A DNA stretch of 7,470 nt from a bacterium (GTDB taxonomy: Bacteria; Blakebacterota; Blakebacteria; Blakebacterales; Blakebacteraceae): the NCBI GenBank assembly GCA_025774205.1, contig JALGWK010000078.1, positions 1 through 7,470 of the forward strand. Direction: 5' to 3'. Of this stretch, positions 1 through 7,470 are shown one piece after another. The notes under the pieces are model-generated. The model searched no databases. It worked only from the letters and a program-made list of their open reading frames with translations, and was not told where the DNA came from. The position numbers and the translations under genes were made by a program. Position 1 is the stretch's first letter. Each line of letters opens with the position of its first letter.

Positions 1-77
<77 letters not shown>

Positions 78-2335: not shown

Positions 2336-3717
2336 GCCTTGGCCCGGAAGGAAATCCTGAGAGGTGTTCCCTCAAAGTTAAATGCTTCTCTGATAGTGCG
2401 TTCCAGATACCTCTTGAAGTTCGGCTTCACCTTTTTCGGATGGTTTACGAAGAAGACGAAGTGGGGCGGGCAGACACCGGTCTGGACCGCGTACGAGATC
2501 CGTACATCGCCCATGGCCGGCGTTATCGATTCGTTCCCTTTCAGGCTCAATTCGATGAATTCATTGAACCGGGAAGTTCTGATCCGGTGGTTCCGGGCGT
2601 CGGCGGCCCGGAGCGCGAGTTCGAGCGTGCGAGACACCCGCTGACCGGTCAGGGCGGAGGTGAAGACGATGGGGACGAATCTGGCGAAGGGCAGCTGGTG
2701 CCGGAGATCGCCTGCGTACTTCTCGGCAGTCCCGGTCTCCTTCTCGATCAGGTCCCATTTGTTCATCACGATGACGGCTCCCTTGCCGCGATCGAGTATC
2801 CGTTCGAGGATCCGGGTATCCTGACTGCCGAGTCCTTCGGGAGTGTCGACGAGCAGCAGCGCCACATCGCAGCGATCGAGACTCTGTAGAGCGCGGAGGG
2901 CGCTGTAATACTCGATATTCTCCTTCACCTTCGTCCGCTTCCTCAGTCCCGCGGTATCGATCAGGACCAGGTCGCGATCCTGCACCCTCACTTCGATATC
3001 AGCGGCGTCCCTGGTGGTGCCCGCCTTCTCGCTCACGATCACGCGTTCACTGCCATAGACGGCGTTCACGAAGGAGGATTTCCCCACGTTCGGTCGGCCG
3101 AGGACCGCGATCTCGATCGGTCGCTGCTCTTCCCCCTCCTCTACCTCCCCGGCTCTGTCCTTCTCCGGCAGGAGACTGTCGTCGTCAGGGAGAACCTCGC
3201 GAAGATGCTCCAGCACGGAATCGAGCAGATCCCCGCTGCCTCGACCCGAGATGGCTGACACCGGCCAGGGCGTGCCGAGCCCCAGCGCGTGGAACTCATG
3301 GATGGAGAGTTCACGATGCTCGTTATCAACCTTGTTGACCGCCAGCACTGCCGGACTGCCCGACCGCCGCAATTCGGCTGCCACTGAACTGTCGAGGTCG
3401 GTCACGCCGGTCTCCACATCCGCCACGAACAGGATGAGAGCCGCTTCATCGATGGCAACCTGGGCCTGGGCCCTGATGGCCTTCTCCATTGGATCTTTCG
3501 AATTGGGGACGAGACCTCCCGTGTCGACCAGGCGGAACCGGACTCCTGTCCACTCTGCATGGGCATAGACCCTGTCGCGGGTCACTCCGGAGACTTCATC
3601 CACAACGGCCTGGCGGCGCCTGATGATACGATTGAAGAGCGTCGACTTCCCCACGTTGGGCCGACCAACGATGGCGACCAGCGGCGGGGTGGTCCTGTTC
3701 CGATCATCACTCTTCAT
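2332..3717 (-). CDS. der: Ribosome biogenesis GTPase Der (EngA)
   Basis: An essential double GTPase that binds the 50S subunit during late assembly. The protein is 461 aa. GTPase domain 1 has G1 GRPNVGKS (18-25), G2 Thr46 in GVTRD, G3 DTGG (65-68), G4 NKVD (128-131) and G5 SAIS (154-157). An acidic linker (about 177-199, rich in D and E) precedes domain 2, which has G1 GRPNVGKS (207-214), G2 TTRD (234-237), G3 DTAG (254-257), G4 NKWD (319-322) and a TSAL G5 block. The C-terminal KH-like domain follows (about 370-461), with the family signature PPHFVFFVNHP. All nucleotide-binding motifs are intact. The start ATG has an excellent Shine-Dalgarno GAGGA (3724-3728, 6-nt spacing) that overlaps the stop of the upstream gene. 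It is separated from that gene by 9 nt, indicating one transcript. Confidence 0.98.
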   Translation of the reverse strand: MKSDDRNRTTPPLVAIVGRPNVGKSTLFNRIIRRRQAVVDEVSGVTRDRVYAHAEWTGVRFRLVDTGGLVPNSKDPMEKAIRAQAQVAIDEAALILFVADVETGVTDLDSSVAAELRRSGSPAVLAVNKVDNEHRELSIHEFHALGLGTPWPVSAISGRGSGDLLDSVLEHLREVLPDDDSLLPEKDRAGEVEEGEEQRPIEIAVLGRPNVGKSSFVNAVYGSERVIVSEKAGTTRDAADIEVRVQDRDLVLIDTAGLRKRTKVKENIEYYSALRALQSLDRCDVALLLVDTPEGLGSQDTRILERILDRGKGAVIVMNKWDLIEKETGTAEKYAGDLRHQLPFARFVPIVFTSALTGQRVSRTLELALRAADARNHRIRTSRFNEFIELSLKGNESITPAMGDVRISYAVQTGVCPPHFVFFVNHPKKVKPNFKRYLERTIREAFNFEGTPLRISFRAKA

Positions 3718-3728: not shown

Positions 3729-5058
3729 ATCGGTCGTTCGGTCCGTCCCCTTCGGCCAGTGCCAACAGGTCACCGACCAGATCGTAGCTCCCCTGCTCCA
3801 CGCGCCCCGACCAGCGGGAGGAGAACTCCTCGAGGCTCACATCATCGAGGAATAATTCCTCATCACTGAGGCAGTTGGGCGGCAGCAGCACCGATTCATC
3901 TTCCAACAGCTCGTGACTCCCGAGCGCACCGGTCAGACAGCGGGATGACAGCAGCCCGCTGGTCGTCACACTGCTGCCGAAAAAGGTGTTCTCCGTCTCC
4001 ACCAGCCGGAATGAAAGCCCCTCGAGTCGGGAGAGTCGGTCACCCAGGTGGCGGTCGAAGAGTTCACGGCCCATGACACCAGTGCAGGCGGTTACCCGCA
4101 GGCACCGTCCGGCGTTGAAACCCGCCTGCCCCAGTCCGGTGACAAGTTCCTCCACTCGCTCCTCGAAACGGGATACGAAGGCGCGGGCCATACCGACACC
4201 GTTCTCCAGCTGGGGAAAATCATCGTACCACGCGAGTTCCGGCAGGGGTACCGCCGAGGCGAGATAGAATTCATCAGCGAGATAGAGGAACCCCTCTTCG
4301 AACCGGTCCCGGTACTCCCGTCGCCACATCTCACCCTGCTCGATGACATCGCGCATCTCCCCTGCCTCGGGCCGCCTCAACGGGGAGAGCCCTTCCCGGT
4401 GATCGGTCAGGCCCACCGGGACCACGGCGACAGAGGCCACGCCAGGGTAGCGGTCGGCCAGGTCGGAGAGTGTTTTTTCCAGGTGATGACCGTCGTTCCA
4501 CTCAGGTACGAGCACGATCTGCGCGTGGATCCGTATGCCTCCCTCGATGAGCTGGTCGAGCCGATCGTTCAGTCCCGCCGCGCGGCGCCCGCGCAGCATG
4601 CGGGACCGCAGTTCGGGGTCGGTCGTGTGGACGGACACGTAGAGGGGGCTCAGTCGCTGGTCGAGAATCCGCTTCAGATCGGATCGGCTCAGGTTGTCGA
4701 GGGTCACGTAGTTCCCATGGAGGAAGGAGAGCCGGTAATCCTCGTCCTTCACCTTCAGGGTGGGACGAACTCCGGGTGGATTCTGGTCGATGAAACAGAA
4801 GACACAGTCATCCCCGCACGTTCGCGGCCCCATCTCCTCGAAGTGGAGACCGAGCCCGGCCGGCACCTCACATGAGACGTCGAAATCGAGTCGTTCCCCT
4901 GTCCGGTCGATCTCCAGGTGGAGATCCACATCGGATGCGTGATAGAGGAAATCGATGATATCGGCGATCGGGTTACCGTTGATGGAGATGAGATCATCAC
5001 CTGGCAGTAGTCCCACTTCCGCGGCCGGACTCTCTTTCCGGATAGAGGTGATCCTCAT
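3727..5058 (-). CDS. PDZ/radical-SAM-like/DUF512 protein next to der
   Basis: A predicted iron-sulfur protein of unresolved function. With the chosen start it has 443 aa. Residues 1-65 form a PDZ-like domain (SPAAEVGLLPGDDLISINGNP, 10-30). CGDDCVFCF (81-89) gives Cys81/85/88 in CX3CX2C spacing, the pattern that binds a radical-SAM [4Fe-4S] cluster. It is followed by the family blocks YRLSFLHGNYVTL (108-120), SVHTTDPELR (142-151), PEWNDG (185-190) and VVPVGLTDHREGL (212-224). The DUF512 portion has FLYLADEFYL (257-266) and YDDFPQLENGVGM (278-290). A later CTGVMGRELF may hold another functional cysteine. I chose ATG 5056-5058 because GGAG (5067-5070) sits 8 nt upstream and the PDZ domain begins there; a TTG at 5101-5103 would add 15 residues but has no ribosome site. 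The protein is soluble, with no signal peptide. In Firmicutes and some other bacteria this family also neighbours der, suggesting a ribosome- or translation-linked role. That is inference. Confidence 0.9.
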   Translation of the reverse strand: MRITSIRKESPAAEVGLLPGDDLISINGNPIADIIDFLYHASDVDLHLEIDRTGERLDFDVSCEVPAGLGLHFEEMGPRTCGDDCVFCFIDQNPPGVRPTLKVKDEDYRLSFLHGNYVTLDNLSRSDLKRILDQRLSPLYVSVHTTDPELRSRMLRGRRAAGLNDRLDQLIEGGIRIHAQIVLVPEWNDGHHLEKTLSDLADRYPGVASVAVVPVGLTDHREGLSPLRRPEAGEMRDVIEQGEMWRREYRDRFEEGFLYLADEFYLASAVPLPELAWYDDFPQLENGVGMARAFVSRFEERVEELVTGLGQAGFNAGRCLRVTACTGVMGRELFDRHLGDRLSRLEGLSFRLVETENTFFGSSVTTSGLLSSRCLTGALGSHELLEDESVLLPPNCLSDEELFLDDVSLEEFSSRWSGRVEQGSYDLVGDLLALAEGDGPNDR

Positions 5059-5115: not shown

Positions 5116-5191
5116 TGGAGCGGCCGACGGGGTTCGAACCCGCGACTTGCAGCTTGGGAAGCTGCCACTCTACCAACTGAGTTACGGCCGC
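5116..5191 (-). tRNA. tRNA-Gly, anticodon CCC
   Basis: The minus strand gives a full cloverleaf with acceptor GCGGCCG (5185-5191) paired with CGGCCGC (5120-5126). Discriminator T (5119), normal for bacterial glycine tRNAs, is followed by an encoded CCA (5116-5118). The anticodon arm is GCAGC / loop TTCCCAA / GCTGC, so the anticodon is CCC, reading GGG. The T arm has GGTTCGAACCC. It lies 57 nt upstream of the DUF512 gene on the same strand. No separate promoter or terminator is visible in between, so it may be the first gene of the operon and be released by tRNA processing. Confidence 0.96.
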
Positions 5192-5265: not shown

Positions 5266-5302
5266 TGGAACGAACCCTGCTCAATCCCTGTGAGGCTTGA
5301 CA

Positions 5303-5860
5303 ATGAGGTTAACTCTGCTGAAAAGAACGCTCTTTCTGGTTGTCTCCCTGACACTTACGGTTCCGGCTACAGCTCATGCCCAGCGGAACGCGCGGGAGAT
5401 CCTCAGCGATCATTCCTGTGTTCTCCAGGCGGGTGACCTGACCCTCCAGTTCATCTATCTTCACCCCGATTCCCTGGGCATGGAGGTCGCCAAGCTGGTG
5501 CTCCGGACGGATGAGTTCCTCAGGTACCAGCAGGAGCGGGCCCGTCTACAGAACAAGCGGTCGCTCCTCGCCCTGAGGCTGACGCCCTACCGGGACGCAC
5601 GCTTCGATCCCACCCAGATCAGGCTCTCCGAGCGCGAGAACGCCCATCAGGTCGGCTTCATGGACATCGTCGACGTGCAGGGACTCTTCACTGGTACTGT
5701 CAGCCGGGGTGATAACATCTTCGGATTCGTCAAGGTCCCCGAGTTGATCGACTTCAGGTGGACCATCACTTTCAATTACGAAACCTATCGGACCGAGTTC
5801 CTCCTCCCTCTCAGGTGGCGGGAACGGTACTTCGATTTCATCGGAGCCCTCTTCCGGTAG
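5303..5860 (+). CDS. Secreted protein of unknown function
   Basis: I do not recognise the family. The product is 185 aa. It begins with a clear Sec signal peptide: basic MRLTLLKR, then a hydrophobic core (about 9-20), and a likely cleavage site AHA|Q after residue 26, so it should be exported to the periplasm or beyond. The mature part has one cysteine (residue 39), which is not in a lipobox, and no further membrane helix. It alternates charged and aromatic residues, as in LTLQFIYLHPDS and FRWTITFNYETYRTEF, suggesting beta-rich structure. An Arg/Gln-rich stretch (about 74-85) may be helical. The start is ATG 5303, preceded by GAGG (5292-5295, 7-nt spacing); the in-frame TTG at 5297 has no suitable site. 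The metalloprotease follows after 43 nt, so the two are probably cotranscribed; it might be a substrate or accessory protein, but nothing shows this directly. Confidence 0.75.
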   Translation: MRLTLLKRTLFLVVSLTLTVPATAHAQRNAREILSDHSCVLQAGDLTLQFIYLHPDSLGMEVAKLVLRTDEFLRYQQERARLQNKRSLLALRLTPYRDARFDPTQIRLSERENAHQVGFMDIVDVQGLFTGTVSRGDNIFGFVKVPELIDFRWTITFNYETYRTEFLLPLRWRERYFDFIGALFR

Positions 5861-5903: not shown

Positions 5904-7367
5904 ATGCGTTTGAAACTCTGTCTGATCGCTTCAGGTGTCATGCTCATGTCCGGCTGCGCCGGCCTGCTGAAGGCCAAATCAGGCACGCAGAAACAATCCC
6001 CCTCGAGTCAGGAGGAATCCTCCGAAGAGGGCCTGAAGCCGTACCATGAAGTCATCACCGACGAAGCGGTCAGTGACGAGGGACTGTTCACGGTCCACCG
6101 CATTGACGACAAGGTCTACTACGAGATCCCGGCCTCTGACTTCGGCAAGGACCTCCTCTGGTTGAGCCGGGTTTCTGCCGTTCCGACCAACAGCGGATAC
6201 GGCGGCCAGAAAGTGGCTACTCACGTGGTCCGCTGGGAGCGGAGAGATGACAAGGTCTACCTCCGCAGCTATCTCTACTCGGTGGTGGCCGACTCCACCC
6301 GACCGATCTTCGAGGCGGTCGCCAACGCGACCTTCGCGCCTATCCTTGATGCCTTCGATGTTGCCGCGGTCCGGATGGACACGACCGCGACTTCGATCGA
6401 TGAATTTGTCGTCATCGAGGTCACCGGTCTCGTCACCGGTGATCTGCCGGAGTTCAGTCCCAAGGGGCGCTTTGAAGCCGGCGGCCTCGACCGCGACCGC
6501 TCCTTCCTCGACTACATCAAGAGCTTTCCGGAGAACATCGAGTACGAACAGGTGCTGACCTACAACGGTTCCGGGGACGGCCCATCGGTCTCCCTGGTGA
6601 TGCATCACAGCATGGTTCTCCTGCCCGAGGACCCGATGAAGCCCCGGCTCCACGATACCCGGATGGGGTACTTCAGTGTCGGCCGGACCGATTACGGCAC
6701 TGACGAACAGCGGGCCGCCAGTCGTCCGTATATCACCCGCTGGCGGCTGGAGAAGAAGAACCCGAACGCCGCCATCTCCGATCCCGTGAAGCCGATCATC
6801 TGGTATATCGATCCGGCCACACCGGAGGTCTGGCGTCCATACATCAAGCAGGGGATCGAGGACTGGCAGGTCGCCTTCGAGGCCGCCGGCTTCAGCAACG
6901 CGATCCTCTGCCTCGATCCGCCCGACGATCCCGACTGGGACCCGGAGGACGCCCGCTACTCGGTGATCCGCTACCTCCCCTCGACGGTCGAGAACGCCTC
7001 GGGGCCTCACGTCCACGATCCCCGGACCGGAGAGATACTGGAAGCCGACGTCCAGTGGTACCACAACGTGATGAACCTGCTCCGCGACTGGTACTTCGTG
7101 CAGGTCGGCAACCTCGACCCCAGGGCCGGGAAACTGCCGCTGCCGGATGAACTGATGGGAGAGCTGGTGCGGTTCGTCGCCTGCCACGAGGTGGGGCATT
7201 CTCTCGGGCTGCAGCACAACATGCGGGCCTCATGCGGGCCTCGGGTTCCTATACCGTCGAGCAGATGCGCAACCCGGAATTCGTCCGCCGGTACGGGCAT
7301 ACCCCGTCGATCATGGACTATGCCCGGTTCAACTACGTTGCCCAGCCGGGTGATGACGTGCCGTTGA
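5904..7367 (+). CDS. Zinc metalloprotease lipoprotein (DUF5117/DUF4953-like), frameshifted
   Basis: The N-terminal part of a large exported metallopeptidase. A lipoprotein signal (MRLKLCLIASGVMLMSGC, lipidation at Cys18) and a Ser/Glu/Gln-rich linker (about 25-45) come first. Residues 45-125 resemble the DUF5118-type N-terminal module (YYEIPASDFGKDLLWLSRV, 72-90; then GYGGQK). The DUF5117-like region follows, up to about 285. The catalytic region has HEVGHSLGLQH (428-438), an HExxHxxGxxH zinc site with Glu429 as the general base, as in metzincins. After residue 442 an 11-bp tandem duplication shifts the frame. The last 45 or so residues to the TGA at 7365-7367 are out-of-frame Arg/Ser/Pro-rich sequence, giving 487 aa with no Met-turn. 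The start ATG 5904 has AAGGA (5891-5895) upstream. As written the product is probably inactive. The family normally extends several hundred residues further. Confidence 0.85.
   Translation: MRLKLCLIASGVMLMSGCAGLLKAKSGTQKQSPSSQEESSEEGLKPYHEVITDEAVSDEGLFTVHRIDDKVYYEIPASDFGKDLLWLSRVSAVPTNSGYGGQKVATHVVRWERRDDKVYLRSYLYSVVADSTRPIFEAVANATFAPILDAFDVAAVRMDTTATSIDEFVVIEVTGLVTGDLPEFSPKGRFEAGGLDRDRSFLDYIKSFPENIEYEQVLTYNGSGDGPSVSLVMHHSMVLLPEDPMKPRLHDTRMGYFSVGRTDYGTDEQRAASRPYITRWRLEKKNPNAAISDPVKPIIWYIDPATPEVWRPYIKQGIEDWQVAFEAAGFSNAILCLDPPDDPDWDPEDARYSVIRYLPSTVENASGPHVHDPRTGEILEADVQWYHNVMNLLRDWYFVQVGNLDPRAGKLPLPDELMGELVRFVACHEVGHSLGLQHNMRASCGPRVPIPSSRCATRNSSAGTGIPRRSWTMPGSTTLPSRVMTCR
7220..7242 (+). repeat. 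11-bp tandem duplication causing a frameshift
   Basis: The unit CATGCGGGCCT occurs twice without a break (7220-7230 and 7231-7241), and period 11 continues one base to 7242. Eleven is not a multiple of three, so the downstream frame moves. Deleting either copy rejoins HEVGHSLGLQHNMRAS to GSYTVEQMRNPEF in one open frame. Confidence 0.93.
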
Positions 7368-7470
7368 TCCCGATCGTGGGCCCCTATGACGAGTTCATCA
7401 TCGAGTGGGGTTATGTACCGATCCCCGGGGCCACCTCACCGGAGGATGAAAAGGAAGTCCTCAACTCAAT
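7232..7470 (+). pseudogene. Continuation of the metalloprotease in the shifted frame, partial
   Basis: Read from 7232, this frame is open to the window end and continues the catalytic domain: MRASGSYTVEQMRNPEF, then TPSIMDYARFNYV, then IVGPYDEFIIEWGY. SIMDY (Met codon 7313-7315) matches the metzincin Met-turn that should lie below the zinc site, so this is the genuine downstream half of the gene. The ATG at 7232 is in the second repeat copy and has no Shine-Dalgarno, so independent translation is unlikely. The rest of the gene lies beyond the window. Whether the gene is truly broken or the duplication is a sequence error cannot be settled here. Confidence 0.82.

Follow-up and report, generated by a model that had tools for sequence, protein, structure and literature searches.

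An exact 11-bp tandem duplication that splits a metalloprotease gene in a metagenome-assembled genome is most likely an assembly artefact

The 11-bp tandem duplication that interrupts a metalloprotease gene near one end of the window is present in the deposited sequence, and it is most likely an artefact of assembly that the organism itself does not carry. The window, 7,470 bp in length, is the entire contig C269 of a metagenome-assembled genome (MAG), G000, which consists of 527 contigs and is 85.85% complete and 4.84% contaminated. The artefact interpretation is preferred because, in the assembly of a sister genome of the same genus (G001), essential genes found in one copy each are disrupted by exact duplications of this type. 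A preliminary description of the window had offered three readings of the site, namely a knockout, a reversible slippage switch, and an assembly or read error. The error is by far the best supported of the three, while a recent knockout is possible and the switch is unsupported. The positions of the features are collected in Table 1.

Table 1. Features of the window and exact tandem duplications in G000 and the same-genus assembly G001
Feature	Location	Strand	Detail
tRNA-Pro (ggg)	window, 1-77	-	
tRNA-Gly (ccc)	window, 5116-5191	-	
Predicted exported protein, just upstream of protease	window, 5297-5860		187 residues; no significant Pfam match
Protease gene, first part	window, 5904-7232	+	lipoprotein-like N terminus, DUF5118, DUF5117, start of DUF4953 with HEVGHSLGLQH; Pfam matches; 77% identity to G003
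Tandem duplication, frame-breaking	window, 7220-7242	+	11 bp, exact; two copies and one additional base; one copy at the corresponding site of G003
Protease gene, second part, other frame	window, 7232-7470	+	Met-turn SIMDY, DUF4953 columns 31-112 (Pfam E = 1.5e-32); 83% identity to G003; gene cut by contig end
Overlap with end of contig C286 (reversed), second variant of protease gene	window, 7314-7470	+	94% identity over 157 bases, reaching the very end of each contig
miaA	G000:C286 (L003), 3233-3298		33 bp exact duplication, in frame
Protease, downstream part	G000:C286 (L003), 4570-4599		15 bp exact duplication, in frame; absent from G003
PPDK-like protein	L026 (G000)		22 bp exact duplication; PEP-utilizers_C domain split between frames
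Aminotransferase	L188 (G000)		61 bp exact duplication; split between frames
DUF1846 protein	L129 (G000)		22 bp exact duplication; DUF1846 split between frames
Potassium channel	L127 (G000:C24)		104 bp exact duplication; channel domain parted from TrkA_N domain
TonB receptor	L023 (G000)		28 bp exact duplication at one end
Outer membrane efflux protein	L130 (G000)		53 bp exact duplication in or beside gene
der	L154 (G001:C27), 3814-3965		76 bp exact duplication; C-terminal KH domain separated from GTPase domains
rplP (ribosomal protein L16)	L221 (G001:C28), 16320-16389		35 bp exact duplication; frame shifted near gene end

Two adjacent direct copies of the unit CATGCGGGCCT occupy positions 7220-7230 and 7231-7241. 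Since the base after the second copy is C, the period of 11 is maintained over 23 nt. The duplication starts at the third base past the last histidine codon (7215-7217) of the HEVGHSLGLQH motif, within an asparagine codon, and no longer repeat tract is present at the site, there being only two copies of the unit. It had been described beforehand as an exact 11-bp duplication just past the zinc-ligand histidine codon, with HEVGHSLGLQH encoded before it and SIMDY after it; both statements were found to be correct, the second frame remaining open to position 7468. An origin of the duplication by chance was rejected on the basis of first-order Markov shuffles of the window, in which exact tandem repeats of period 11-60 averaged 0.005 per window.

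The interrupted gene is deduced from its domains to encode an exported zinc metalloprotease, the activity being predicted. The two pieces of the gene were used separately in all searches. The first piece matched DUF5118 (E = 3e-18), DUF5117 (E = 1e-53) and DUF4953 (E = 1e-12) in that order, each above the Pfam cut-off, and DUF4953 is completed on contig C286. Columns 3-34 of the DUF4953 profile were matched in the frame before the duplication and columns 31-112 in the frame after it (7232-7468), and it was therefore concluded that one Met-zincin domain is split over two frames. Membership of this family is supported by the presence, in different frames, of both the zinc motif HExxHxxGxxH and the Met-turn. 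No name for the protease was obtained from NCBIfam, no relative of it was found in a sequence search for a solved structure, and a literature search found no paper naming DUF5117 or DUF4953. A frame similar to that of the exported protein just upstream also precedes the protease on the contig of a genome of the same family (G003), and the pair may thus be conserved.

The nearest named relative is the Candidatus Zixiibacteriota MAG CSMAG_1180, which is presumably the same record as G003 (contig C234). The comparison with related genomes that had been suggested in the preliminary description gave one copy of the unit in G003, the nearest full-length relative, in which a frame of 790 codons runs uninterrupted across the site. 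For approximately 70 of 80 GTDB relatives, the motif HExGHxxGLxHN reads straight into the Met-turn, the remainder having been missed by the motif pattern. Neither G003 nor the relatives recovered with the motif showed a repeat tract at the site, and no second copy-number state was observed among the relatives examined. In G001, the contig ends before the site, and the rest of the protease gene was not found in that assembly. Differences from G003 at codon positions 1, 2 and 3 numbered 83, 58 and 200 over 441 codons before the duplication and 8, 4 and 39 over 78 codons after it. The part after the duplication was deduced to be under purifying selection rather than in decay.

The distance from the duplication to the contig end is 229 bp, and the overlap with contig C286 (4,814 bp), also of G000, lies beside it. 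This contig begins inside the same protease gene and carries the remainder of the protease domain through the stop codon. Most of the differences between the two contigs are found within the initial 57 overlapping bases, and 7 of the 10 changed codons are synonymous. As the overlap is 94% identical and runs to both contig ends, it was concluded that two close variants meet here and that the assembly was interrupted between them. G000 yielded no other contig that covers the site in single-copy form. The two in-frame duplications in C286, one in the protease and one in miaA, are consistent with assembly errors.

The following sequence of events is proposed. The metagenome would have held two closely related variants at this locus, through which the assembler could not walk. 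The assembler, or a subsequent step in which sequences were joined or gaps closed, would then have placed side by side two pieces with a common 11-base end. With the overlap left unmerged, the 11 bases would have been written twice, giving an exact duplication whose junction has little additional homology. We infer both the joining step and a single copy in the reads. In the organism itself, the gene is most likely intact and encodes an ordinary zinc metalloprotease of the DUF5117/DUF4953 type, predicted to be exported.

Further support for the artefact interpretation was obtained from a census of exact tandem duplications with a period of at least 11, which covered 82 contigs of G000 (489.6 kb) and, as controls, 79 loci from other genomes (1.40 Mb). 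Exact two-copy duplications numbered 12 in G000 (24.5 per Mb) and 6 in the controls (4.3 per Mb), a roughly sixfold higher rate in the sampled G000, although the control contigs are on average longer. The disparity was greater for frame-breaking duplications, those with a length that is not a multiple of three, of which there were 7 in G000 versus 1 in the controls (Fisher p = 5e-4), corresponding to an approximately 20-fold higher rate. A control subset of short loci (23 loci, 248 kb) contained two duplications, both in one locus. The excess extends to G001, in which three exact two-copy duplications were found in 262 kb, all of them frame-breaking. None was found in 161 kb from two MAGs of the same family, which carry Ns at their joins; the sampled G000 contigs are without Ns at joins. 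At the G000 rate, approximately 0.18 such duplications would be expected in a window of this size, and the duplication in the protease gene is therefore not unusual for this assembly. Contig ends, taken as the terminal 400 bp, hold 13% of the bases but five of the 12 G000 duplications (p = 0.014; p = 0.02-0.03 with limits of 300 or 500 bp). The junctions of all 12 show 0-2 extra identical bases. Three of the G000 duplications were checked for a contig with the single-copy counterpart, and none was found.

Besides the G000 sites listed in Table 1, the duplications affect G001, in which der and rplP are broken and each was found once. Both genes are essential or nearly so in the bacteria that have been studied. 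Since a cell could hardly live with its sole der or rplP broken, the most plausible reading of such duplications is that they are assembly errors. As a separate observation on the contig that carries the potassium channel gene, its bases 1-114 are identical to the start of contig C472 over 114 bases, so that these G000 contig ends overlap though unjoined.

A real 11-bp duplication that arose recently by replication slippage, with the gene knocked out in the strain or in part of the population, was also considered. A young event would be expected to leave an exact duplication and undecayed sequence downstream, as is seen here, and no essential role is known for the protease gene. Bacteria do acquire short tandem duplications; a literature search on them returned nothing directly usable. 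This explanation is nevertheless judged unlikely, given the many like duplications in G000 and G001, some of them in genes that cannot be lost, and the position of the site beside an assembly break.

A much lower probability is assigned to a reversible slippage switch, in which changes in the number of 11-bp units would turn a surface protease on and off. As 11 is not a multiple of three, copy number would indeed set the reading frame. However, there are only two copies, G003 and the motif-read relatives have no repeat tract, no second state was seen in any relative examined, and similar duplications are present in housekeeping genes, for which a switch would serve no purpose. It is accordingly very improbable that the two-copy form is a real population allele in which the frameshift leaves the metalloprotease off and from which reversion to one copy may occur. 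The same low probability is assigned to an unusual mutation process in the lineage that would generate, throughout the genome, exact short tandem duplications, of which this site would be one instance: it would account for the excess in both same-genus MAGs, but frame breaks in the only found der and rplP would be lethal, the positions lean toward contig ends, and the two same-family MAGs have none, albeit with Ns at their joins.

The artefact interpretation calls for caution, as exact short tandem duplications break conserved genes in both G000 and G001, and apparent pseudogenes or switches that result from them should not be read as such without reads. The signature, an exact, two-copy duplication with little junction homology, often near a contig end and affecting essential genes as well, may offer a rapid test of MAG quality.

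The protease resembles Met-zincins with DUF5118, DUF5117 and DUF4953 (PF17162, PF17148 and PF16313) in its domain order and in the motifs HEVGHxLGLxHN and SIMDYARFNY, and it is 77-83% identical to the Met-zincin protein of Zixiibacteriota CSMAG_1180. It differs in that its frame is broken by the duplication and its domain is cut by the contig end. Spurious pseudogenes are described as frequent in low-coverage bacterial assemblies (PMC11017572), and the present case probably resembles those, which are frameshifts linked to coverage and assembler in genes that the organism carries intact; in the portion of that report considered here, frameshifts and stops are counted in general, and exact tandem duplications are not singled out. 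False duplications are also known to arise when overlapping contigs that represent two variants are left unmerged (Kelley and Salzberg 2010, PMC2864568). Those cases concern long stretches in diploid assemblies of vertebrates, whereas the units here are of 11-104 bp in a bacterial metagenome assembly; in both, contigs of two variants have overlapping ends but stay separate, and the sequence common to them appears twice.
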